DNA of 64,000 nucleotides, taken from contig JAYKYS010000002.1 of the NCBI GenBank assembly GCA_036924285.1, positions 44,097,501-44,161,500 on the forward strand, given 5' to 3'. Shown one piece after another: positions 803-33,105 of this stretch (within the stretch, counting starts at the first letter, position 1; every line of letters starts with the position of its first letter). Origin of the DNA: Asterella californica. Taxonomy: Eukaryota > Streptophyta > Marchantiopsida > Marchantiales > Aytoniaceae. The position numbers and the translations under genes are program-made. Under the pieces are notes generated by a model. It had not been told where the DNA came from. It worked only from the letters and a program-made list of their open reading frames with translations, and made no database searches.

Positions 803-973
803 TGCGATCCAGTCTTCATCCTATTTTTGTATTAATCTCATGCAGTGTTTTGCCTTTAGTGCCTTCTGCTGCAGTTTGAAGACGAAAAGGCCTAGTCCTC
901 CTTCCCCTTTTGGTCTTTTGAACTCCTCCCATGCTATCATCGAGACTTTGTCTTTCCCTTCCCCGTTTTTTCC

Positions 974-2088
974 TCAGACAAATGTTCTGCATAATTTTTC
1001 CATCTCTTCACAGGTCGGCTTGCGGAAGGCAATGCAAGTAAGGATGTGAGTCGGCATTGATCTCAGCACATGGCGCACTACCATTATCTTCCCTGTCATC
1101 GTTAATAGATTATACTGCCAGTTGCTCAATTTCTTTCTCATTTTCGACAAAATGTATTGCGCATGCTCCTCCTCTGTGATCTTCCACCCAATCGGGTATC
1201 CCATGTACCGAATCACCTCTCCTTCCCTCGCTACATGGCAACCTGTCCTAGTCATCCACGGTTGTAACTCCTGCATCGTCATTGGGATGATTGTCGACTT
1301 CGTTACATTCAGCTTCGCTCCCGAAATCTGTTCGTAGAGTATGACTACCTCCTGGAGGTTCTGGAAATTGCTTTGTTTCGCTCCGAGGCATATCCCTATA
1401 TCGTCCGCGAACTGTTGATGTAGCAACTGTTTTCTTCTTTTGATTTTGATTCCACTGAGTTTCTCTTCCTTGGCCGCTTCCTCTAGGAGGTTCATCAGTG
1501 GTTGGGTGGCCATCGCGAATAACAACGGAGCTAGTGGGCATCCTTGTCTTACCCCCCTCTTTAGTTCTATTTCCTCAGTAAACAAACCGTTAACGTGCAC
1601 CTTCGATACTGCTCCTTCTACCAAACCTTTTGTTAGTTGGATGAACGTTGGGTCTATCTACATTGCTTCCAATCGTCTCCCAGAGATATGTGGTTAACCC
1701 TATCGTATGCTTTCTCAAAATCTAGTTTGATGAACATCGATGGTTTGTCCTGTTGTTCCGCCCACTCCTTTCCGAGACTGTATGCAAGGATGTTATCCGC
1801 TATGTGTCTTCCTTTGATGAACCCTTTCTGCTTGTTGTCCACAATGTCTGGGATGATCTCTTTTAGTCTATTAGCTAACAACTTACCTATGATTTTATAG
1901 GCAGTCCCGAGCATAGAGAGCGGTCGCCAGTTCTTCAGGTGTTCCAGCTCCCCTTCCTTCGGTAAGAGTTTTATCACCCCTTGAGTCATTTTCCAAGACA
2001 AAATGTTGTCCTCCCAAAAGCTATTGATGATATCCATGTAGTCACCTTCCATCACCGGCCACATTGCTTTTATCGTCTCGCTCGTCAT
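974..2088 (-). pseudogene. LINE copy 1 reverse transcriptase, broken
   Basis: The N-terminal part (1654-2088) contains WRPLSML, the GF(I)KGRHIADNIL segment and LDFEKAYDRV, which are reverse-transcriptase motifs of plant LINEs. The C-terminal part (974-1624) contains RGVRQGCPLAPLLFA and the catalytic FADD box at about 1400-1411. The two parts are in different frames, joined by a break near 1625-1655. A further open stretch (181-802) downstream would be the C-terminal part of ORF2. The catalytic aspartates are intact, so inactivation comes from frameshifts and not from loss of the active site. Confidence 0.88.
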
Positions 2089-2124
2089 TCCATCTAACCC
2101 TGGTGTTTTGTCATTGCACAGGTT

Positions 2125-3533
2125 TCAGACCACCTCCCCAACCTCCTCACTCGTTGGTTTCGTTGTTAGGCGTCTGTTCTGCTCCTCCCCCGTTTTCTTT
2201 TTGATAAGACCGAGGACCCTTTGTCTTTTCCCTGACGCTTGCTCTACTTCCTCATCCCGTTGGAATAGTTTTTGATAGTATGTTTGTATCTCTTTTAGTA
2301 TATCCTCCTCTTTAGTGTGCAGCGTCCCTTCCTCGTCCCTTAGAGCCGTGAAGGTTTCTTTCAATCTCTTCGTCCTTGTGATTGCGGAATTTGTTTTTAG
2401 GGGGCGTCTCCTTCTCGAATCCACCTCAGTTTGCTCATTCTCCGCCAGTATGTGGTTTTTTCAGCTTCCAGCGTTTTGATCTCTTGTTCCATCTTCTCCA
2501 GCTTTTCATCTCTCACGTTTGCTCTGCTTTGTGCCATCTCTACAAATTTTGCCTCCAAAACCTCGAGTCTCTTCCTTCCCTCCCATTTCTTTTGTTTGAT
2601 GGCTTTTTCTTTTTGTTGTAGCATGTTTCGAGTTTGGCTCCGCTTCTTTTCCCATCGAATCCTGCTGTCCTCTTCTTGTGGTTTTATGGTAACACCTTCC
2701 CAGACTCTTTTCCCTTCCTCAATCGTTCCCTCCGCTTGAAGAACCTCTGGTGAGACTTTATAGTATGTGCCTTTTCTTCGTTGATGTTGCTGTTCTGACT
2801 TCGTACAGATCGCGCTGACGGGGAGATGATCCGAGAGTGTCTCCTTTTCATCGTGCTTCATCTGTGGTTTCCCTGACAGCCATTCTCCTTTCCCTGATAA
2901 ATATATTCTGTCTAGTCTCGATTGATCGTATCTTTGACCCACGTGTTGTTGTCTTGTGAAGAAGGGACCTTCCCGTGATGATGAGATGTGAAGACCATCC
3001 TCCAGGTCGAGGGCGAACATCAGACCTTGCCACTTCTTTCTTTCTATCCCATGCTGAACCGCCGTCCTTCCTATGCTGTCTACGTGCGTCTCCACCAAAT
3101 TCCAGTCTCCTCCTAAGACCTAATTCCTTATCGTGAGTTGTTGTTGTAACCATTCTCACACCCTTATTCTTTGTGCTCTGTCGTTCGGTCCATACACCGA
3201 GGCCGCGTTGATCATTCCCTTTTCCGTCCGAATTTTCGTCCATGCTACCGTCCCGTCTCCTTTTGTGTCTTTTTCTTCCACCAGCCACCCACTCTTGACG
3301 ATTAACGCAGCTCCCGCTTTCCCTTCTTCGTTGTAGTCCATCACTATATTTTCGGCTTTGGTGAGCTGTTGTAGGTTGAAGATCGCTTTTTGTTGTTTCA
3401 CTTTTAGTTCATGCAGCATCATGATGTCAAGCCTTCGCTCTCCCTGTGTCATCCATGCCTTTAGTCTTCTGATGTTGTTCGGGTTCCCCAAACCTCTAAC
3501 GTTCCATGTGGCTACCTTAAGGTCGTCTCTCAT
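2125..3533 (-). pseudogene. LINE copy 1 endonuclease domain and linker, broken
   Basis: The start at 3533 opens with a segment that reads KVATWNVRGLG, the hallmark beginning of AP-like endonucleases in plant LINEs, where the Asn takes part in metal and phosphate binding. The pattern goes on with a conserved 'HELK' segment near 3410 and 'VYGPND' near 3180. A frame break lies near 3100-3160. The reading continues at 2397-3098 with the RLDRIY and SDHLPV motifs typical of the endonuclease C-terminus, followed by a Lys/Glu-rich helical linker to the reverse transcriptase. In a live element this domain nicks target DNA to prime reverse transcription. Confidence 0.82.
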
Positions 3534-3667: not shown

Positions 3668-5723
3668 CTACATTTCGACTGCGAACTCATGTTGGGTTTT
3701 GAAATTGGTGGCCCCTACTTCTACCTCCATTTCGTCTTCCCTTTGTCGTCCTTCTTGTTTGTCATGGTTGTTTGTAGTGTTTTGTCGGTCTGTGACCCCT
3801 CCTTCTTCTTCTTCGCTCTCGACTTCAGTTTCTTCTTCTCTTCCCGTTTCTCTCTCTCTCTTCCTCGTTTCCTCCTTCCCCTCTTCTTCTTCCCAGTTCT
3901 TGGTTCCTGCGTTGGTTGTCTCATCATTACTTTCTGTAGCTTCCCCTACTTTCTCAGCTTCTGCTATGATGGTTTCGTCTTCCTTCGCTAGTACCGCAAA
4001 TGGGTTCGACGTTGATGGTGTTCCAGCGATAGTGAGTCCTGGTACTTTGATTGCTTTCTTCCTTCCTTCAACGGTTTGATATCCTTCATCGGCTTGTTGA
4101 TCTCGCGCCTGCATCGAACGCTCTTGTCTATTCCCTTCTGGTCCTCTGTCGACAGTTTGGACAGACATCCTTGCTGTGGTACCTTGGGTTGGTCTTCGTC
4201 TTGGGCAATGTCGAACTATATGATCTCTTTGGTGGCAGTGAAAAGAAGCATCGGGTAGATTTTTGTACGTCACCTTCTGTCTGTAAACTGCAATTTCTGG
4301 GTCGTCTTCCACCTCAATTTTCACATATTCGGTAAGATCCCTATCTAGATCCAGCAGAACACATCCTATGATGCAGTTGAATTGACACTCCTTTTTTTTG
4401 TTTGTGAGATATAGGACTTCCCCCAAACTTTCTAGCATTTCTTGCCCCATGTATTCGTACCATGCGTGTATTCCTGCCAGTTCTACCCAGACGGGTGCTC
4501 TCCTTGTACGCAGATATGCCAAGGTCAAATGAAGATTCCCAGGGAAATGCGAACACCATTCTCGTTCCCATGAAGAGAGGAGATACTGACAGGATTCGGT
4601 CTCTTTCTTCTTTATTTGTTACTTGCACTATGAAACAGTTCCTTCCCAGAACTCTGAGTCTCTCCACGTGAATGCCCATCTGTTGGGTAAGGATAATTTC
4701 CGTCATTCTCTTACCATGTCCCTGGAAGGTGCGATGTCAGCCGTGTATAGTACAAATGCAGTTCTTTCCAGCATGGTCATCCTGTTCAGAAGTAGACGGC
4801 TTGAGGTCTGAATTCTTGTGACTTTCTGGTCTTCTATCGGGGGGGGGGGGGGGGTCCTTCTCATTACGCTCTAGCAATGCCACTTTGAGGGTTTTCCAGG
4901 GTGGCGGTCGATACACATTGATCTTCGTACAGCTCCGGGTACGTTTGCAGCTTTGGTTCGTTGTCTCTCCTGAACCGAGTTAGGTTTCTATCGATGGACT
5001 CCTTGGACCCAGCTATGGCAGCCCAGCTGTGTTCTGCTTTGTCTCTCTCGATTTTGCCTTCAGGTCGTTTCTTCCCTCTCTTGATGTACCTTCTCTTCTG
5101 ATCTCACTTCCTTCTCTGTTCTGTTCGGCATTGTTTTGCAGAGGCTGATTTATTTGGTGCCTTGGATCTTCTGTCGGAGGCCGTATTCTCTCCGATGTGT
5201 GTGGTGCGGCCCCTGGTGTTTTCCCCGTGTTGTTCGTACTGATTTCCTGTCCCTGGTACACCTTCCTGTTCCTTTCGATTGCTTGTGTGGTTTGATTTGT
5301 TAGTGTCAGTGCGACATGTGGAGCCTGCACTACCAGTGTTGCTGTCTGCGTTGTTCTTACAGCTATCTGTCTTCCCAGCATCGCTAGCTCTAACATTTTG
5401 TCCTCCTTCATCTTTTTTGCAGGTGGTGAGAGTGAGAAAAGTACAGTTCCGATCACTGTATCTGTGTGTGGACAGTTAGCGATATCCCTCAGTATTCTTC
5501 GTCGTCCGCTCCTTCTTTTTCCAAGATTCTGTCTTAGGAGCAAATGATCAGGCTCAGCATTTGAGGTTACCGCGGAGAAAATGAAGTTAACTTCATTTTC
5601 GTTGTTTTCAGCCACAGTTTCCCCGTGCTTGATTTCTTCACCACTTCCGTGCTTTGCAAATGACATTCCACTTACGCCTTCGTTGTAAACTCTGCTTTCT
5701 CTCGTCCGTACCTTCCCACGCAC
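3668..5723 (-). pseudogene. LINE copy 1 ORF1 (gag-like RNA-binding protein), broken
   Basis: Three open stretches in different frames cover this ORF: 5013-5723, 4341-4706 and 3668-4528. The middle parts read like the DUF4283-type N-terminal domain of plant LINE ORF1 proteins (a stretch with TRRAPVWVELAGIHAWYEYM near 4440-4500). A CCHC-like zinc knuckle (CHQRDHIVRHC) follows near 4205-4235, and the C-terminal tail is a long Glu/Arg/Lys-rich low-complexity segment (about 3780-3960). In the full element this protein would bind the element RNA. Frame changes fall near 4340-4530 and 4710-5010, the latter including a run of 16 G. Identification of the family is firm; the exact start is not. Confidence 0.8.
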
Positions 5724-23783: not shown

Positions 23784-23791
23784 CATTTTTC
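23784..23791. repeat. Left target-site duplication (CATTTTTC)
   Basis: Eight bases directly before the left TIR are identical to the eight after the right TIR (32639-32646). One more matching C is ambiguous, because the left TIR itself begins with C. Confidence 0.9.
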
Positions 23792-23965
23792 CAAGCCCGC
23801 AGCTGTGGCACAGTTCCGCTAATTATGTCTCGGTTTATACGTGCAAATTTATTAATGATCGGTCCCAGATTCGTGGTCGAGGGAAAACGCCTGTAACCGG
23901 GTTCCGCTCATTACCGCAATCACCGAGCCTCGAACTGCAATCGTGATCTTAACTGTAGTCATGGT
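23792..23965 (+). repeat. Left terminal inverted repeat of the MULE
   Basis: Aligned by eye with the complement of 32512-32638, the first 127 bases show eight differences and no gap. After that the right end has an extra internal duplication, and the match resumes around GAGCCTCGAACTG..GATCTTAACT. Sub-terminal direct repeats with ACTGCACGGTC..GATTACAGTCACGATCACGG follow at 23970-24050, as is common inside Mutator termini. Confidence 0.92.
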
Positions 23966-23969
23966 TACG

Positions 23970-25460
23970 GTATCAACTGCACGGTCCGAATTACAGTCAC
24001 GATCACGGTCTCAACTGCACGGTCACGATTGCAGTCACCGAGCTCAAAGCACATTACGTTCTCCGCCTGTTCATTTTGAATTAGGCACAGTTTAACAAGA
24101 AATTTGTCAGTTCTCTGTTCATTTTGAACTAGGCACAGTTTAACAACAAATTGTCAGTTTTCTCAGATGTGCTCAGAAACATATTCTCACAATACGCGCA
24201 ATGTGAGATTTCACAACACACTCGCACTGTTCGTTAACCTCGAGCTTTCGCTAATACAGCTTGATATTGCGTTTTGCAGTCTGATCGCTTGATATTGCGC
24301 TTTTACAGTCGGATCGCTTGATATTGCGTTTTACAGTCTGATCTTCAGTTTTGCAGTCTGATCTTCAGTGATGTTTTGTTCTTCTACTACAGTGAGCAGC
24401 TACGGGAGACGTAATTTGCAGTACTTGGTGGACTGCTTGGAAACTAATCTGTGTTGCTCTCATCTGTTACTGAAGGTTTCGGTCTTAGCGTATGCAGAGA
24501 GTGGATTCAGGACATATGACGGATGCGACAGATGCAGCAAAAAGTTGTGTGGGTTGTTTTGTTCGAGATATAAAAGTTAGCGTTTGTCGTCGATAAAATG
24601 TTTCAGATTGCAACTTCTGGTAGCGGATGAAAGTGCCAACGCGTGGACCATAGCATGAGAAGCTGGGAGAGATTTTCTAGGCATAAGTGCCTCGGCTTAT
24701 AGTCTACTGGAAATACGCAGAGATGACAATGTTTTGATGGACCGGATCGTTAGTCAGCATTGGTATTGTCATTTTACCATTGTGACAAGTAAACTTGTTG
24801 GAGAAAAATATATTCGGATCGACCAAGCACAACCCTGTGGGAAACTCGATTCAGAAAGGCGCATGTCTACTACTCGAATTGTCATTCCTACCCAATGTGT
24901 TATACCCGGGTCGAGCACAAGCACCACACCGGTTAGAGATTCGCAGTCAGTGAGATCCTAGACCGGTCGCATTGAGCGCGCGAGGTTATAGGCTACAACT
25001 AACAATCTGATGTTAAACGGTGAGGTCACACAGATTATTCCCTAATCTGTGTAGAGGTCGACTAGTCGAAATAACAATATCACCGCGGACATGATGCGGT
25101 GCGGTGATACTGTTATTACCGAACCTAAACTCAAAACTAAACTCAAATCTAAACTCAAAACACAGTAGTCAAAAAGCGATGTGCGGTGACGTCGTAATGG
25201 TACTTTGAGCTGTTTGGGTTATAGGCTAAGTGCGACCGGTCAGAGATTCGCAGTCAGTGCGATTGTAGACCGGTCGCACTGAGCGCGCGAGGTTAACTGC
25301 GTAAGGGTACTTTTACTTGTTTTACTTTGAGCTGTTGGAGTTGGGAGAAGAGTTTAACAGAAAAACATAGATTAATCAAATGAGAAAACAACACACTTTA
25401 TTAACTTATATCAGGTTTCTCCATACATAGATTAACCATATCAGAAAACAACACACTATA
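23970..25460. other. MULE left subterminal region, no gene recognised
   Basis: Several direct repeats are visible: GTTCATTTTGAA(T/C)TAGGCACAGTTTAACAA at about 24065 and 24117; GCTTGATATTGCG three times between 24260 and 24330; and a GACCGGTCGCA(T/C)TGAGCGCGCGAGGTTA block at about 24961 and 25270 that shares the GTCGCACTGAGCGCGCGAG core with the larger arrays. The last 45 bases of the cargo gene (from 25441) are repeated, diverged, at 25379-25425. Open stretches at 24368-24580 and 24734-24961 are not recognisable as genes. Confidence 0.6.
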
Positions 25461-28459
25461 TTAACTTGATTTCAGTTTCTCCATAAATTCGGTCGCTTGA
25501 ACGATAGTGCAAGAACGCCAAATCAAGTTGATTTCCTCCTCTGACATAGTGCCCCAATAGTTCTTAAGAGCAAGATAAGGATCTTTTCCAAAGGTCTGTC
25601 TATACTTAGCAGTCACATATCCTGGGGTATCTTGGGTGCTGCTAGCCCATGATTTCAACCATGGTAAGAGTACATTCATGAGATAATCATCTTTGTCCAT
25701 GTCACTGGACTCACGCATGAAAGAAGGGGGATGGATAGCATTGTATGGATGATTAGTACTATTCTTCTCGGGAGAATCATCTATCAACAACACATCTCGT
25801 GTACATAAGTTAAACGCGAAAAGTCGAGAAAAATCCTTCAGATACAAGTAATTACCAGTGGCAGCTTCTCTGGTAGTCTTGAAACGAGTACACATGGGTT
25901 GTCCGAAGATTCTACAGATCTGCATAGTACCATAATGAGACAATGTAAATAAAAAATGAAGATCTGTATAGTACGATTACAGTTAACAGAAACAAACAAA
26001 GTGGAAAGAAAATGGAAACAAACTGAAGATCTGTATCGTACAACAAAGAAAGTAAAGAATAACTTTAATAGCAATGAGTTTGTTTGCAGTTACCTGGCCC
26101 GAAGCGATCCATGTAGGCAAGTACTTTTTGGTCTCCATGGACCAAAAGATGGCGTTGCAGTTGTTAAGAGTTTTGGATGTTCATATCAGCACTTGAAAAT
26201 CCTGACAGCATATCTCCATGAACTCTTTAACTCCTTTTCGTGCCACATAGAATAAATCCTTTTTGACACTCTGAATTTGGTAACCTCTCTCTTTAGCTCC
26301 TTGAAGCTCTAAGTCATTACGTCCCGTTCTTACCAACAAACCGTTCAGATCTAGAATCAGTGTCTTCCTTCTGATCACAGTAGGATCTGTCAATCCAGGA
26401 TAGAAGAGTTTGGAAGAACGAAGACGAGTGACATCCGTCTTTAACCTCTCCAACTCCTCTTCCTGTAGTTGTATTCGTTCGTACATGTCTTCTTCTCTCT
26501 GGCTCGCTTCTATTATTTGGAGGTTTACAGCTTCTAGTTCTTCTCTTTTCATCGCAAGACGAGCATCTAAATCTTCCTCCTCTTGCCTCTTGTTCAGAAG
26601 ACTCTCTGGTTCTCCTACATGGCATCGATGTATAAAGTAAACTTTAGGAAAGGAAGTAAAAATGTTTAGGAAAAGAAGTAAAAATGTTCCTCTGTAAAAC
26701 AAACCTCAGTGCGATCTCAGACCCGTCGCGCTGCGCTGTGGAGAGGTGTCGCACAGTGCGACGCAGTGCGGCTGTCGCACGGAGTGCCGCGTTAAGGTCG
26801 CGCGCTCAGTGCGACTAATATACAGTCGCACTGACCGCGCTTGCTTACGACTCACACTTCGGGCCGCGCGCTCAGTGCGACAGGGCGGCTGTCGCACTGA
26901 GCGCCTTGTTAAGCAAGCTCGCGCGCTCAGTGCGACTGTATATTAGTCGCACTGAACGCGCGAGCTTACGAGTTGCACTGAGAGGCCGTGCGGTCAGGAC
27001 GACAAGACGGCTGTCGCACTGAGCGCCTTGTTAAGCTCGCGCGCTCAGTGCGACTATATATTCGTCGCAGTGAGCGCGCGAGCTTACGAGTCGCACTGAG
27101 AGGTCGGGCGCTCAGTGCGACTCGTAAGCTGTCGCACTGAGCGCCTTGTTGTTAAGCTCGCGCGCTCAGTGCGACTGTATATTTGTCGCACTGAGCACGC
27201 GAGCTTACGAGTCGCACTTCGGGCCGCGCGCTCAGTGCGACAGGACGGCTGTCGCACTGAGAGCGAGTCCGTAAATACTCTTCATGGGGTGCGAGTCGCA
27301 CTGATTTTGCTCAGTGCGACAAAACAACTAAACACCTTAAGGCCGCACTGACCTTAAAGCCGCGCTCAGTGCGACCAAGCTATTGTCGCAATGGACGTGC
27401 AGCACCAAATAGCATAGTGCGACCGATAGACCCGTCGCACTGTGCTATCAGGACTATCTGAACAACAAGCACTCAACAGAGATTTCACTGAATACTACAT
27501 CGAGCGAGCACAAAATAACTGAAGCCTAAGATATTTTAGAGCCAAAGTAACTCAAACAAGCAAATAATACACAAGTAAAGAGAAAACAGGTACCTCTATC
27601 ATCGTGGACTACGCCAAGCTCAACACCAAGCTGATGCTGCTGGATATTTGGATGCGATGTACTCTCTTGTTGTAGTTCGTGTTCAATGGAGAATACTAAC
27701 GCCTCCTCGCTCAAGATATCCAAGTGTCGCATGAGATGGATTAAAGTCATCCCGCAGAAAGTTTCTACAGATACTCCTTTCCTCTGTTCTCGTATGTGCT
27801 TCTGCAGATGTAACACTTCTGCCTCTAGATTCTCGAACATGAACAAAGACCAATCATAATCCATATCTTCTCCTTCCACTTTAGATTTCACGTACAAAGC
27901 AAGTTGACATGTAACAGCTTTAGGCCTTCTTCTCGCCAGGAGAACCGCATTCAAGCACTGGAAAGTAGATCTCCATCCTTCGATAGCACATTCTCTTGCA
28001 AAGTATCTTTTCCCCACTTTATCATACTCAGGAAACCAACCGTCTATTCGAACATGTCTTACGTAGGGGACACAGATCCTTCAGGAATAACAAAGGCTTC
28101 CCGGATTAAGTCAAGGGTCAACTTGAACTCTCGATCTCCAATTTTGGTCATTCTTGTTGCTGCATTATAGGATTGGATGAAAGCCACGCAAAGTCCAATC
28201 TGACATAAACAAACATTACACATTACAATAAATAAAAGTATAACCAACCAGTAACCATCACTTAACTTACAGTAAACACTAAACTTGAGTTTACTTCACT
28301 TGAGCTTAAACTGAATAGGAGGGACTAGGATGGACTAATGAGCAGAGTACTTACGTCAGGCCGAGCAAACTCGAACGAGAACGCGATCAATAATCTCAGC
28401 TTCTCTAGCTCTTCCTCGTCTATTTCTGACAAGGCTTGACCGATAGCTTCTTTATCCAT
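25461..28459 (-). CDS. MULE cargo gene: coiled-coil protein with FCP1/HAD phosphatase-like domain (four exons inferred)
   Basis: Inferred exons: 28459-28355, 28199-27594, 26614-26094 and 25919-25461. The start ATG at 28459 is preceded by an in-frame TGA; the first donor is GTAAGT. Exon 2 ends in phase 1 and exon 3 begins in the matching phase, which supports one gene of about 540-563 residues. The N-terminal part (exons 1-2) matches nothing I know. Exon 3 begins with a Glu-rich coiled coil (DARLAMKREELEAVNLQI..) and then LILDLNGLLV, HAD motif I. Exon 4 holds LYLKDFSRLFAF and LLIDDSPEKN (HAD motif IV), then HPYNAIHPPSF. Motif I has Asn where active FCP1 enzymes have the second Asp, so catalysis is uncertain; some plant FCP1-like proteins have this form as far as I recall. 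Two blemishes: an in-frame TGA at 26178-26180 where Trp is expected, and a one-base frame change near 28075, or else a 68-bp intron there. Confidence 0.72.
26178..26180 (-). other. In-frame TGA in the phosphatase-like gene
   Basis: The reading GTG CTG ATA TGA ACA TCC AAA continues open in the same frame to the splice donor CAG|GTAACT at 26093. FCP1-like proteins have Trp here (..WTS/WSS.. after motif II strand), so a TGG-to-TGA change is the simplest explanation. If real, it would cut the protein before motifs III-IV. Confidence 0.7.
26706..27440. repeat. CAGTGCGAC palindrome array inside the cargo-gene intron
   Basis: About twenty copies of CAGTGCGAC or its complement GTCGCACTG lie in both orientations. 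The core is a tandem repeat with units of 118-121 bp: the text CGCGCTCAGT recurs at 26801, 26922, 27040 and 27161. Each unit contains a hairpin with arms CTCGCGCGCTCAGTGCGAC and GTCGCACTGAGCGCGCGAG around a short AT-rich loop (TGTATATTA or similar), then a second, weaker inverted pair. The whole array lies between the inferred donor at 27593 and acceptor at 26615, that is, within one intron. Confidence 0.93.
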
Positions 28460-28769
28460 CCATTGTCAAACGATACGTCGAGAGACATCGTGTTGAGAAG
28501 TAAACGTAATTAAAAAAGGTCCTTCTTCTCGCGGTGCCATACTTGTACTTCTTCACACTGCAAGCTGGCTTCGCACTTACTCAAGAGATCACCTGATAAG
28601 AAAAACAGAAGCAAGTCTGTCAAACCTCTAAACAAAAGCGAGTATGTCAGTTTAGATACGAACAGAAAGCGAACAGCACAAGGAATGAAAACAAAAACAA
28701 GCAATGAAAACTCCAAGTTCAGGATCCATAGTACTCCAAGTGGTCGATCGAAAATGTGTACAGAAAATC

Positions 28770-29375
28770 GTTAATCGCTCAGTGCGAGTGCGGTACTAGT
28801 GCGATGGTGGGAGGAAGCGCGTTTAGTGCGACCGTGAGCGGAAGCGCGTTCTTGTCAATGTGGAACTAGTGCGATGGTAGTGCGATGGGCGGAAGAGCGT
28901 TTAGTGCGACGGTGAGCGGAAGCGCGTTCAATGCGAAACTAGTGCGATGGGCGGAAGAGCGTTTAGTGCGACGGTGTGCGGAAGCGCGTGCGGGTCCTTG
29001 CTAAACCCTAGACCCCACACCGCGATCAGTGCGACTTAACAGTGGTCGCACTAAGGCTATTTTTCTAGCTGTGCGGACAGTGCGACACGTTTTCAGTCGC
29101 ACTGAGCGAGTGCGACCGAGAGTATATCGCACTGAGCGAACACTTAACGCACTGCTCTCAGTGCGACAAGTGAAGACTCGCACTGAGAGCACTTGTCGCA
29201 CTGCTCTCGGTGCGACAAGTGTAGAGTCGCACTGCTGTCAGTGCGACAAGTGTAGAGTGGCACTCAGAGCACTTATCACACTGCTCTCAGTGCGACAAGT
29301 GTAGTGTCGCACTGAGAGCGGAAGGTAAAAGCAGTCATCGGTCAGTGCGACCGACAATATATCGCATTGACCGCA
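28770..29375. repeat. Second CAGTGCGAC array, between cargo gene and transposase
   Basis: The part nearer the cargo gene (28770-29000) has imperfect tandem units with AACTAGTGCGATGGGCGGAAGAGCGTTTAGTGCGACGG-like text. The part nearer the transposase (29020-29370) has about ten CAGTGCGAC/GTCGCACTG motifs in short hairpins (CTCAGTGCGACAAGTG..). It lies directly upstream of the cargo-gene start (28459) and downstream of the transposase stop (29640), so it may hold the cargo promoter. Confidence 0.9.
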
Positions 29376-29639
29376 CTGCTCTGCTTCATTTGTTTATTAT
29401 TTATTCTTATTTATTCTTCTTATAGTGAACTTATGGTCGCTATAATCTCCTCTTATTACTTTTTAGAAGTTCATATATCATCCCCAAATTATAATCACCC
29501 TCCAGGGAGTTGAACCCTGACAGACCAAATCGGCCTGGTCCGATAGGGTGTCCTGCACAAAACGAAACAAAAACCACAAGCACAAAAAAAGTTTGTCGTA
29601 AAATATATAACACAAAAACCACAAGCAAAAAGAAACAAA

Positions 29640-32121
29640 TTATCGCAAATACAATGAGGGACCACTAGATGCCCAGGTATGTTGTTGTCCACGAGATCGA
29701 AGAACAGTTATACAATGACGAACTTTTCTCTCAAAAGGTTGAAACGCCTTGTCAAGTGACTTCAAAAAGAGAGGATTGTCATGTTCGCGATTGCAAAGAG
29801 TTCTGAGAAAATCTAGAATCTCTTCACATCGCTCGACCAGATTGAATCTTTCTGTGTCTTCAGCTGCTCCTTGTTCAGATGCTCCTTGCTCGCATACATA
29901 AACATCTTCTCCATCCTCTGTAAAATCGAAGTGAGTAGGATGTCTTGACATTTCTTCATCTACATGACTTCGTTCAAACCATGGGTTCATATCATCCGGT
30001 ACCACTTCTCTGTTGAAAAAGCTCTCTGGACTACTGAAAACATAAAATGGATAACTGCAACGTCGGAATGTGGACGAGAACACGGGTTGTATCGTAGAGG
30101 TCTGAGCATAAGCTCTGACCAAATGCTTGCATAACAAGTACGGGCTATTTATAAATGAGTAGCAAGAACATATCCATCTCTCCACGTCTGGGAATGAATA
30201 CCCGGAACAGACACATCTTTACTCAGATATTTACACCAAGTGACACGAAACTGTTCCCACCAGCTGGGAAATAAACGTCCGTGAATGATTTGGTGTAACG
30301 ACACTTGCATATCTGCCACCAGACTTTCACAAATGATTAGCGTCAACTTATCTAAACGAGGACGGTTAAGAGCATATTTGTAATCGTGCTTCAATTTTCT
30401 CCAATGACTCTCTACAATATTCGTAGTGCGTGACAAGCAAAGGAGAGGCTTTGATGCTCTACTGAAAATTTTCCATTTGTCTGGACTGTACCACTCTCCC
30501 CAGAGATATATCCACAAAGACAGAAGGTTCAAATTTTTACAGAATTCATAAATCTCACGAACAGCCGTACAATGTAATACATCAGGAGTAAAAAATTTAC
30601 CTTCTGTTGATGGTATAAGTGAATGCAAGTTGAAATGTTTGGTAATCATTTCAACCACAACCTTTCGTTGTTCAGCATTACACAATTGATCAACAACCTC
30701 TACGCTCTCTGAAAACCAATTTGCATCAATAAAAGAAAAAAATGTACTTGCCTCCACACTGTTGTATGATCCAGTGGCTCGTCCAGTGCACATACATCGA
30801 ACTTCGACCGCTGATTGAGCATGCTTCAAACAAGCTGAATATACATAACAGTAAAAACAGATCGTAATGCCGATATCTGACCAATGTCTTTGTCTGTGAG
30901 TGCGAACACAGGACGTAGTCCTCTCTCTCTTAACTTCTCGAACCACATCATAAGAACCTTCTTTCTATATTGTTCCATGATTGATCTAGAACTCTTCTTT
31001 GCATCACCTTGTCTCAAGTAAAACATGTACGATAGAGGCATACCAAAACCTCCGAAGTTTGCAGCAATAACAAACAGCTCAAAACGCATAGAGTTAGTTT
31101 TAAAAGTATTGTCGATTTCTGACACTATCTATATGCTCAAAAAAAAGGGTGCATATTGCAAAAGCAATGTATTCTTCAGTTTGTTCATACAACACCTCAA
31201 CAAAGCATTTCTCAGCTAAAGCTTCACTGCGTATCAACAAAGATGCAGACTTCACTTGATCATCTATATCACGCACATATTGTCTAGATTGAACTTCAGC
31301 AATCCAAAAATTTACCTGTGCCCGAGTTATAGTCAAAGGACTAATGACCTCTTTTTCACATAATATACGGTATACCTCAGGCTTCCGGAGATTTAATCCA
31401 GATATCGACTCCAAAAACGTGATAGCATCAGCAGGAAAACAATGCAACTTATGCGTCGGCTTCTCATGTGACAGCAAAGTTAAATATATTAACTTCTGCT
31501 GTACGTCCACTGTTACTCGTAAAGTTCCATTGCACTCAAATCTATCGATCTTCTGTTTCTTTTCTGGTTGTCTTACCTGTGATGTGGATCCTTCACCTTT
31601 ATCTCTGAATTTTGTCCGGTCAGATCGTGAGGTACACCATAATGTCGCCCTTAAGATCGAACAGTCTTTCACAAAAACACGCGGGTTACGTACTTCCCAA
31701 TAGTATCCAGAGGCTACCTCCATATTCGGAATGATGTTTGTCTTCAGCCAAGACGTCAAACACACTGACAAGTTACTGGAGTTTAAAGTCTGCAACTCAT
31801 GCATACAACTCTCGTCTGAAAGATGAACTTTCAGTCGAAAAAACACAAACCCGTCTTTGCCATCCTCATCTCCGAAACACTCTTTCACAACATCAATCAT
31901 TTCTGAATGTTCACACTCCACTGTCACTATGGAAGCGTTATCATCATCAATCTCATTCTCCAAGCCCGCGTCGCATGGAGAAGTACCGAGGTTAGCTTTG
32001 TTGTAACATTGGTTACATTGTTTGAACATAGCTAAATCAAGAGGATTATGTCCTTGGCGAGCACGCGTGAATGCGCTGATTGACAATGTTCGATTGCATC
32101 GATTGCAGTAAACCTTCTCCA
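29640..32121 (-). pseudogene. MULE transposase with three frame breaks
   Basis: Start ATG at 32121 opens with a CxxC..CxxC zinc-binding pair (CNRC and CNQC). The DDE core is readable: first Asp in DNTFKTN (about 31111-31113), second in TDKDIGQISALRS (about 30892-30894), Glu in TTNIVESHWRKLKHDY (about 30412). A SWIM zinc finger (CxC..CxH, CSC and CKH) follows at about 30110-30165, and a C-terminal helical tail ends at 29640. The order fits the MULE family (PF10551 type). Reading requires frame changes near 31125-31150 (in or next to a run of eight T), near 30855-30865 and near 30185-30205. The first could be a 66-bp intron ending TTTGAGCATATAG. The other two look like single-base deletions. 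So it is probably inactive here, unless these are assembly errors. Confidence 0.88.
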
Positions 32122-32404
32122 TGATAAGCACTCTAATGATAAGCACTCTAAAACAGACACCAGTACAAGCACAACGAAGACTCAGCTCTCTCTCACAACT
32201 CTCTGTCACCAAGCGGAATTCGATTCAGCGAACGTCGATTCAGTCATGTCCCAATTCAATAGTGAAGACGTCGCACAATTCAGCAGTGAGGAAACCTGGA
32301 GTCTTCAATGCCGCCGTCTCAGTATAATTATGGACAACGGACTTACAACCAACGGACGGAACGGCTTTCACTTCATTGGGACTGCCGTCGCGACTGCAGT
32401 CTGA

Positions 32405-32638
32405 AAACTGTGACACTGACTATAGTTAAGATCACGATTGCAGTTCAAGGCTCGCAGTCACAGTTCGAGGCTCGATGACTGCGGTAATGAGCGGAGCCTG
32501 TAACCGATGACTGCGGTAATGAGCGGAACCCGGTTACAGGCGTTTCCCCGCGACCACGAATCTGTGACCAATTATTAATAAATTCGCACGTATAAACCGA
32601 GAAGTAATTAGCGGAACTGTGCCACAGCTGCGGGCTTG
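32405..32638 (-). repeat. Right terminal inverted repeat of the MULE
   Basis: Counterpart of 23792-23965. It contains an internal direct duplication of about 34 bp (GATGACTGCGGTAATGAGCGGA at about 32473 and 32507) that the left end lacks, so the right TIR is longer. It lies some 280 bp upstream of the transposase start and probably contains its promoter. Confidence 0.92.
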
Positions 32639-32646
32639 CATTTTTC
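32639..32646. repeat. Right target-site duplication (CATTTTTC)
   Basis: Matches 23784-23791 exactly; the next base (C at 32647) extends the match to nine under the alternative boundary. Confidence 0.9.
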
Positions 32647-32647
32647 C

Positions 32648-33105
32648 GGAGCAAGGGTTACGGGTCTGATCGTCTTGAAGTCCTGAAGTACCGACGTTTA
32701 CCATCATTCACAATCAGATTGACACAGAATCAGGCGTAAAACAGGCTTCACTCGCTCTTAAAATGAGATTCTGAATTTTTCTCAAGGTAGCATATATTAC
32801 ACTTGTGGTATCAGCGAAAGAGCAAGACTAAGCCAAAGAATTCGCCAGATGACATAAGCGAAGATAAGATAAGATACGTCGGGCTGCTTTCCTCCTAACA
32901 GGTTGCTGAATTTCTGACCATAATCCATATACAGAACCACTTAAGTGGTAAAGAATCTATCTATTCTACACTGGTTTTCTTGCTCGATCGGTGGAACGGA
33001 GATGTACTCTTTCAAGAACAGTCATCCGGTCAGGTCTCTCGAAGTTTCAACATAATATTACACAGGACATGCTCGGGAGAGGGATGTGAGAATTTAGACA
33101 GGCCG
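32648..33105. other. Spacer between MULE and phytoene synthase, probable PSY 3' UTR
   Basis: No coding region. It should contain the phytoene synthase 3' untranslated region and polyadenylation signals; nothing decisive is seen. Confidence 0.4.

Follow-up and report, generated by a model that had tools for sequence, protein, structure and literature searches.

The window analysed here is a 64,000-nucleotide stretch of the genome of Asterella californica (contig C102 of assembly G000, positions 44097501-44161500). It harbours a Mutator-like element (MULE) of 8847 bp, in which a transposase gene is accompanied by a second gene with a phosphatase-like domain, termed gene 2. The genome searched comprises 516.7 Mb in 773 contigs. 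The element is bounded by two terminal inverted repeats (TIRs) of 134 nt, located at 23792-23925 (plus strand) and 32505-32638 (minus strand), which are 93% complementary and identical in their outermost 34 bases; shuffled sequence averages 0 matches over 100 rounds. A perfect 8-bp target-site duplication, CATTTTTC, adjoins both repeats, at 23784-23791 and 32639-32646. MULEs are typically recognised by long TIRs, a target duplication of 8-11 bp, a transposase domain of the PF10551 family, and a SWIM-type zinc finger, and the first two of these features are found here. The original prediction had described readable TIRs with a flanking duplication, enclosing a MULE transposase and a multi-exon FCP1/HAD gene; the ends are as described, and the minus strand carries gene 2, which matches PF03031, and the transposase, whose similarity to PF10551 scores under the Pfam cut-off.

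Gene 2 occupies positions 28540-25461 on the minus strand and consists of four exons, which were placed using open frames and GT/AG sites. Exon 1 (28355-28540) carries an in-frame TGA at about 28466-28468. Exon 2 (27594-28199) encodes a conserved N-terminal domain without a Pfam match and has a frameshift near 28070. Exon 3 (26094-26614) includes a coiled-coil-like stretch, read by eye from the sequence, followed by the first half of the NIF domain with a DLNGL motif; it is interrupted by a TGA at 26181-26183. Exon 4 (25461-25919) supplies the second half of the NIF domain and the stop codon. With the exons joined and stops written as X, the window copy matches PF03031 (NIF) with an E-value of 2.2e-14 and 53.9 bits. 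The majority consensus of gene 2 reaches 60.3 bits over profile positions 1-156 of 160, so that the domain is near full length. The gene had been called nearly whole, which overstates the state of the window copy, given the TGA in exon 1, the indel frameshift in exon 2, and the TGA within the NIF domain. Judged against their relatives, both genes of the window copy are broken. An assembly error as the source of the broken frames is disfavoured, since the neighbouring xyloglucan fucosyltransferase open reading frame (ORF) and phytoene synthase exons are clean, and most other copies of the element have stops or gaps of their own. Third-position GC content places gene 2 (0.43) nearer to the transposase (0.37) than to two host genes close by (0.54 and 0.60, with one segment of phytoene synthase left out).

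The NIF domain of gene 2 resembles that of FCP1/SCP phosphatases in its conserved WTS and DDS.EKN stretches. The catalytic motif of these enzymes is DxDx(T/V), whereas the corresponding position reads DLNGL or DLNGV in the consensus and in the three gene-2 copies compared (L029, L032, and L033, introduced below). Comparison of gene 2 with solved structures gave sub-threshold matches only, the best being SCP1 with an E-value of 0.35; in a further comparison a proteasome chain (0.34) came just ahead of SCP1 (0.36). Three scans of viral contigs confirmed no relatives.

The transposase gene extends from about 32121 to 29640 on the minus strand and contains frameshifts near 31115, 30830, and 30190. 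Its best single frame matches PF10551 with an E-value of 1.9e-5 and 25.4 bits, under the Pfam cut-off of 27.6. An open relative of 847 codons is found in copy L029 (positions 844-3387 of that locus); it scores 27.0 bits (E-value 6.1e-6), just under the cut-off, and other versions of the transposase score 22.9-26.1 bits. A CxCx10CxH stretch, CSCYSFINSPYLLCKH, which resembles a SWIM zinc-finger pattern, is readable, yet PF04434 (SWIM) was not listed in the Pfam search. The consensus transposase retains one internal stop. The median pairwise ratio of non-synonymous to synonymous differences per site (pN/pS) is 0.52 for the transposase (36 pairs, range 0.35-0.83).

The recurrence of the element was assessed with its left 301 bases, which gave 275 candidate places in the genome; the best 40 were scored and comprise the window itself (100%) and 39 others at 78-91% identity. 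Twenty stretches of 10 kb, at 20 of these 39 places (ranks 2-21; L009-L028), were selected by the left end alone, and their TIRs are 79-96% identical to that of the window. A second TIR is present in nine of them (L010, L011, L012, L013, L014, L015, L020, L021, and L024). Seven of the nine are flanked by a perfect 8-bp duplication; L015 shows one mismatch, and L014 has seven matching duplication bases next to an altered TIR end. The outermost TIR base is changed in L024. Both genes, in unchanged order, are found in all eight long two-ended members (8.9-9.4 kb), while the ninth, L013, is 2.8 kb long and retains only exon 4 of gene 2. Across the 20 stretches, gene 2 is detected in 17, each with a homologue of exon 4, and the transposase in 11; in the one-ended stretches the element may extend beyond 10 kb. 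A separate observation concerns L021, an independent insertion with other flanks, whose 8-bp duplication is the same CATTTTTC as in the window, by chance or through target preference.

Selection on gene 2 can be read from its copies. The majority consensus, built from 12, 14, 14, and 17 sequences for exons 1-4 with the window included, is a single open frame of 592 codons in which every splice join is in phase. Over 152 pairs, pN/pS has a median of 0.41 (range 0.18-1.08), which indicates purifying selection; decay after insertion inflates this ratio, as in L015, which gives 1.26 against the consensus. The original prediction had considered either a genuine second element gene or the capture of a full-length gene, and had proposed asking whether most complete family members that share these TIRs also have the phosphatase-like gene. 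Because it recurs in 8/8 long two-ended members and has been under purifying selection, it is an element gene and not a single capture. The window copy is a decayed member of a two-gene MULE family to which gene 2 belongs as a stable component under selection. Pack-MULEs carry captured gene fragments and have no transposase; assignment of the family to this class was rejected, the transposase being present in all eight long members.

Relatives of gene 2 were also sought independently of the TIRs. For the exon-2 domain the genome yielded 1172 candidate places, of which the best 150, the window included, were scored at 57-100% identity. Six gene-2 places were taken for close study on the basis of their open frames and spread of identity. 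Three loci, L029-L031, belong to the same MULE type as the window element, with TIRs 79-86% identical to its own. L029 has an open transposase frame and a gene 2 whose four exons are all open, and its TIR arms are 98.6% identical. Six gene-2 places have equal scores, 86% identity, and a 237-aa open frame (C526:27477336, C32:4840055, C52:7968987, C102:34734314, C102:34737670, and C135:757191), which suggests very recent copies; C52:7968987 is L029, and two of the six are neighbours, oppositely oriented and separated by about 3.4 kb. Another six places, at 82-83% identity and five of them stop-free, form a cluster of about 340 kb at C43:6356004-6694421.

Two further gene-2 loci, L032 and L034, lie in elements of a different kind. 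Neither this second superfamily nor the implication of the motif arrays described below figured in the original prediction. They show no match to the MULE TIRs, and a tblastn search at 1e-3 found no match to the MULE transposase. Their transposase instead matches DDE_Tnp_4 (PF13359), with E-values of 7.2e-28 for L032 and 3.8e-18 for the L034 piece, and Plant_tran as well. A DDE_Tnp_4 transposase is characteristic of PIF/Harbinger elements, which are further marked by a 3-bp target duplication and a Myb-like second ORF. The two elements measure 8.3 and 8.8 kb and can be aligned as wholes at 81-92% identity. Inverted repeats of the GGGGGTGTCAAAGTTAAAG type form their termini, and each copy has TATTA on either side. 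The elements also contain a second ORF of 377-383 aa, on which Pfam is silent at an E-value of 0.5, and gene 2 is situated between this ORF and the transposase. The Harbinger gene 2 is diverged, being 57-71% identical over exon 2, and has the same four-exon layout as the MULE gene 2.

The association between gene 2 and Harbinger transposases is not limited to these two loci. A search with the L032 transposase gave 2063 candidates, of which the best 86 loci (91 rows) were scored. Within 6 kb of each other, 28 of the best 150 gene-2 places are paired with 28 of these 86 transposases. The distance between starts is 3.0-4.7 kb, and all 28 pairs are convergent; the chance expectation is 0.30, presuming uniform placement of gene-2 places and transposases. 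Sorted by gene-2 identity, pairing is found among the listed places in 0 of 90 at 80% identity or more, in 2 of 17 at 70-79%, in 23 of 38 at 60-69%, and in 3 of 5 below 60%.

The gene-2 lineages are separated by considerable divergence. The exon-2 domain of the MULE copy L029 is 64-71% identical to those of other lineages and contains a near-invariant, Arg/Lys-rich block from FVRHVRI to VTGQLALY. Over exons 2 and 4, the comparison of L029 with the Harbinger copy L032 gives pS 0.77 and pN 0.20, and the comparison with L033 gives pS 0.87 and pN 0.24. The elements DLNG, IWTS, and (V/I)DDS.EKNSTNH are common to three lineages. The third of these, represented by L033, L037, and L038 (C43:8743000-8759799), has an exon-level identity of 57-60% and contains 14 exact copies of the motif described below. 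About 3-4.5 kb beyond its gene 2 lies an ORF of 444 aa, part of which is SWIM-like (PF04434, E-value 0.34, below the cut-off). The element ends were not found; the lineage is perhaps a further element type.

The non-coding DNA around gene 2 is populated by arrays of a short motif, CAGTGCGAC. The window contains 33 copies, 31 of them inside the element, as well as 16 palindromes of 9-9-9 form when one mismatch per arm is allowed. The arrays are located downstream of gene 2 (24930-25300, one exact copy, the rest degenerate), in intron 2 (26700-27450, with palindromes of the form CAGTGCGAC-N9-GTCGCACTG), and in the spacer that separates the two genes (28780-29380). Copies were counted in 14 elements, namely the window element, the eight long members selected by their left end, L029-L031, and the studied parts of L032 and L034. 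The motif occurs 323 times in 67,070 non-coding bases, 0 times in 59,466 coding-aligned bases, and twice in 67,464 bases outside the elements, of which the window gives 55,153; the third reading frame discussed below was classed as non-coding. Shuffled elements contain a mean of 0.04-0.12 copies each. The confinement of the motif to such elements is judged within the stretches studied.

The placement of the arrays is similar in the two element types. In L029 they span about 4.5 kb and occupy three places: the spacer separating gene 2 from the transposase, intron 2, and the region past gene 2. Up to 34 exact copies are found per element. L032 has arrays in the first two of these places and a single copy on the far side. 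Because the arrays of L032 and L029 give no blastn alignment at 1e-3, the two elements share a motif rather than an alignable array. The three sampled stretches in which gene 2 was not detected (L018, L019, and L025) contain 0 exact copies; this fits a pairing of gene and motif, in a set of three stretches that may be truncated.

To our knowledge, sequence-specific anti-silencing by transposons has been described chiefly for the VANDAL elements of Arabidopsis, and we know of no superfamily other than that of the MULEs in which an accessory gene of the Kaonashi/Ulp1 type is found. VANC proteins bind short motifs in the non-coding tandem-repeat regions of their own VANDAL elements (PMC10398659) and remove silent marks from these elements (PMC10398659, PMC13317346). 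Gene 2 is similar to VANC in being an accessory gene borne by a MULE with short motif arrays in its non-coding DNA (for VANDAL, PMC10398659 and PMC13317346). It differs from VANC in its NIF/HAD phosphatase domain, in that the module is common to a Harbinger-type superfamily, and in that its DNA binding is a prediction. The Kaonashi/Ulp1-bearing MULEs likewise have a host-like enzyme domain fixed in an accessory gene (PMC13317346), although theirs is a protease domain and that of gene 2 is phosphatase-like. MAIL3, a PMD-PP7 fusion, combines a domain related to transposable elements with a phosphatase domain (PMC7156037); its phosphatase is a PPP domain, unlike the NIF/HAD domain of gene 2. The plant mobile domain (PMD) is present in many MULE groups (PMC6446971, Table 1), and the possibility that gene 2 encodes a PMD protein was rejected, no PMD match being among the Pfam results. 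Gene 2 is comparable with mudrB of MuDR, mutB of Mutyl, and vanB, each of which is likewise an additional ORF next to a transposase (PMC6446971). None of the MULE groups in Table 1 of that work includes a NIF domain or a phosphatase ORF, and the word phosphatase appears nowhere in its main text. In a limited search of the open-access literature, no Mutator-like or Harbinger element with an FCP1-type gene was found.

The reading preferred here, which has about an even chance of being correct, is that gene 2 and its motif arrays may constitute a transferable accessory module with its own DNA target motif and a VANC-like anti-silencing role. Under this reading, the protein encoded by gene 2, possibly in dimeric form, would bind the CAGTGCGAC palindromes of its own element through the basic exon-2 domain. 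The HAD domain would then act on RNA polymerase II or on chromatin at that place. The element would thereby stay expressed despite silencing by the host, with a phosphatase fold taking the place of VANC. A more ambitious version, put forward tentatively and with somewhat less than even expectation, is that gene 2 and the CAGTGCGAC arrays could form a portable 'reader and target' cassette occurring in at least two DNA transposon superfamilies of one genome. If so, a phosphatase-fold protein would read the motif and protect or activate any element that has both, and an anti-silencing (or transcription-licensing) system would be travelling between unrelated transposons.

Several observations weigh against this preferred reading. 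In all three gene-2 lineages compared, Asn stands where FCP1/SCP enzymes have the second Asp of DxDx, and catalysis by the gene-2 protein is consequently uncertain. The exon-2 domain gives no Pfam match above chance, and its AlphaFold models reach a pLDDT (predicted local distance difference test) score of 35 from the window sequence alone and, at best, 57 from eight sequences, too poor for a fold comparison. For these reasons, DNA binding by exon 2 is a guess from its basic residues and its link to the motif. Among the best 86 Harbinger transposases, 58 are without a gene 2 from the best 150 places within 6 kb, and three of the 20 stretches selected by their left end (L018, L019, and L025) have neither gene. 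VANC motifs vary among families (PMC10398659), whereas the core of the gene-2 motif has stayed constant over deep divergence. The arrays are, moreover, centred on gene 2 and may be merely its regulatory DNA.

In an alternative that is less likely than the preferred reading, the arrays are cis-regulatory DNA of gene 2, serving autoregulation or host factors, and the gene has moved together with its promoter. Gene 2 would then help the element in another way, by acting on the C-terminal domain (CTD) of RNA polymerase II, on the transposase, or on DNA-repair phosphoproteins. NIF-type phosphatases act on the polymerase II CTD and on nuclear substrates, which suits such a role, and in MULE and Harbinger elements alike the arrays stand around gene 2 and occupy its intron 2. 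Up to 34 exact copies per element over about 4.5 kb (L029), many of them palindromic, nevertheless exceed the usual need of a promoter, and some arrays lie downstream of the gene. The palindromic, repeated, and GC-rich character of the array units would also suit internal binding sites of the transposase, or structural hairpins acting as a source of small interfering RNA or as a replication block, with gene 2 unrelated to them. This is improbable, as it requires one motif common to two unrelated transposase superfamilies; in addition, the arrays are internal and away from the TIRs, and they accompany gene 2 in L032 and L034, where the MULE transposase was not detected at the tblastn threshold given above.

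The remaining alternatives concern the origin of the module. If gene 2 and its arrays were a separate transposon nested within MULE and Harbinger elements, the occurrence of one module in two superfamilies would follow directly. Such nesting is very unlikely, however, as orientation is fixed and distance similar within each family (28/28 convergent Harbinger pairs, 8/8 long MULEs), and L032 and L034 align along their whole length at 81-92%. That gene 2 is a single host gene captured by this one copy, in the style of a Pack-MULE, can practically be dismissed. Capture of host genes is common in MULEs, and the introns are retained, but recurrence in 8/8 long members and 17/20 stretches refutes the idea, and long-term purifying selection and the deep divergence between gene-2 lineages also contradict it.

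Compared with the VANDAL case, the protein family of gene 2 is a different one: it is accompanied by motif arrays of its own, occurs within a single plant-type genome in two transposon superfamilies that are not related to each other, and includes an open copy. Gene and motif together suggest that transposons have shared a helper system. Two questions thereby become directly testable: whether superfamilies can exchange such systems, and whether a protein of phosphatase-like type is able to act against silencing.

The prediction of only two gene-like units between the TIRs is correct as regards the transposase and gene 2, and incomplete as regards the remnant of a third conserved reading frame at 24536-24940 on the plus strand. 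This frame runs on the strand opposite to gene 2, near the left end of the MULE, and its product is 83% identical to that of an open ORF of L029 (8485-9087, minus strand). It is matched in all 20 stretches selected by their left end (in L025 over 28 residues only) and in L029-L031, and no match was found in L032-L038. The L029 ORF weakly resembles the C-terminal domain of RPA, with a PF08646 score of 13.5 bits (E-value 0.061) where the cut-off is 28.5, and the window piece has no PF08646 match. The frame is possibly a third element gene, and the MULE family is perhaps a three-gene family.

The surroundings of the element include host-type genes for phytoene synthase, a xyloglucan fucosyltransferase (ORF of 663 aa), and a LYR protein, a set that suggests a plant or a green alga related to plants. 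The right end of the element lies about 465 bp past the stop codon of the phytoene synthase gene, which ends at 33103 and whose exons read cleanly. At the left edge of the window, a reverse transcriptase domain (PF00078, E-value 7.7e-11) is found at 974-1657 on the minus strand, adjoined by a long ORF at 3668-4618 on the same strand; together they perhaps represent an element resembling a long interspersed nuclear element (LINE).

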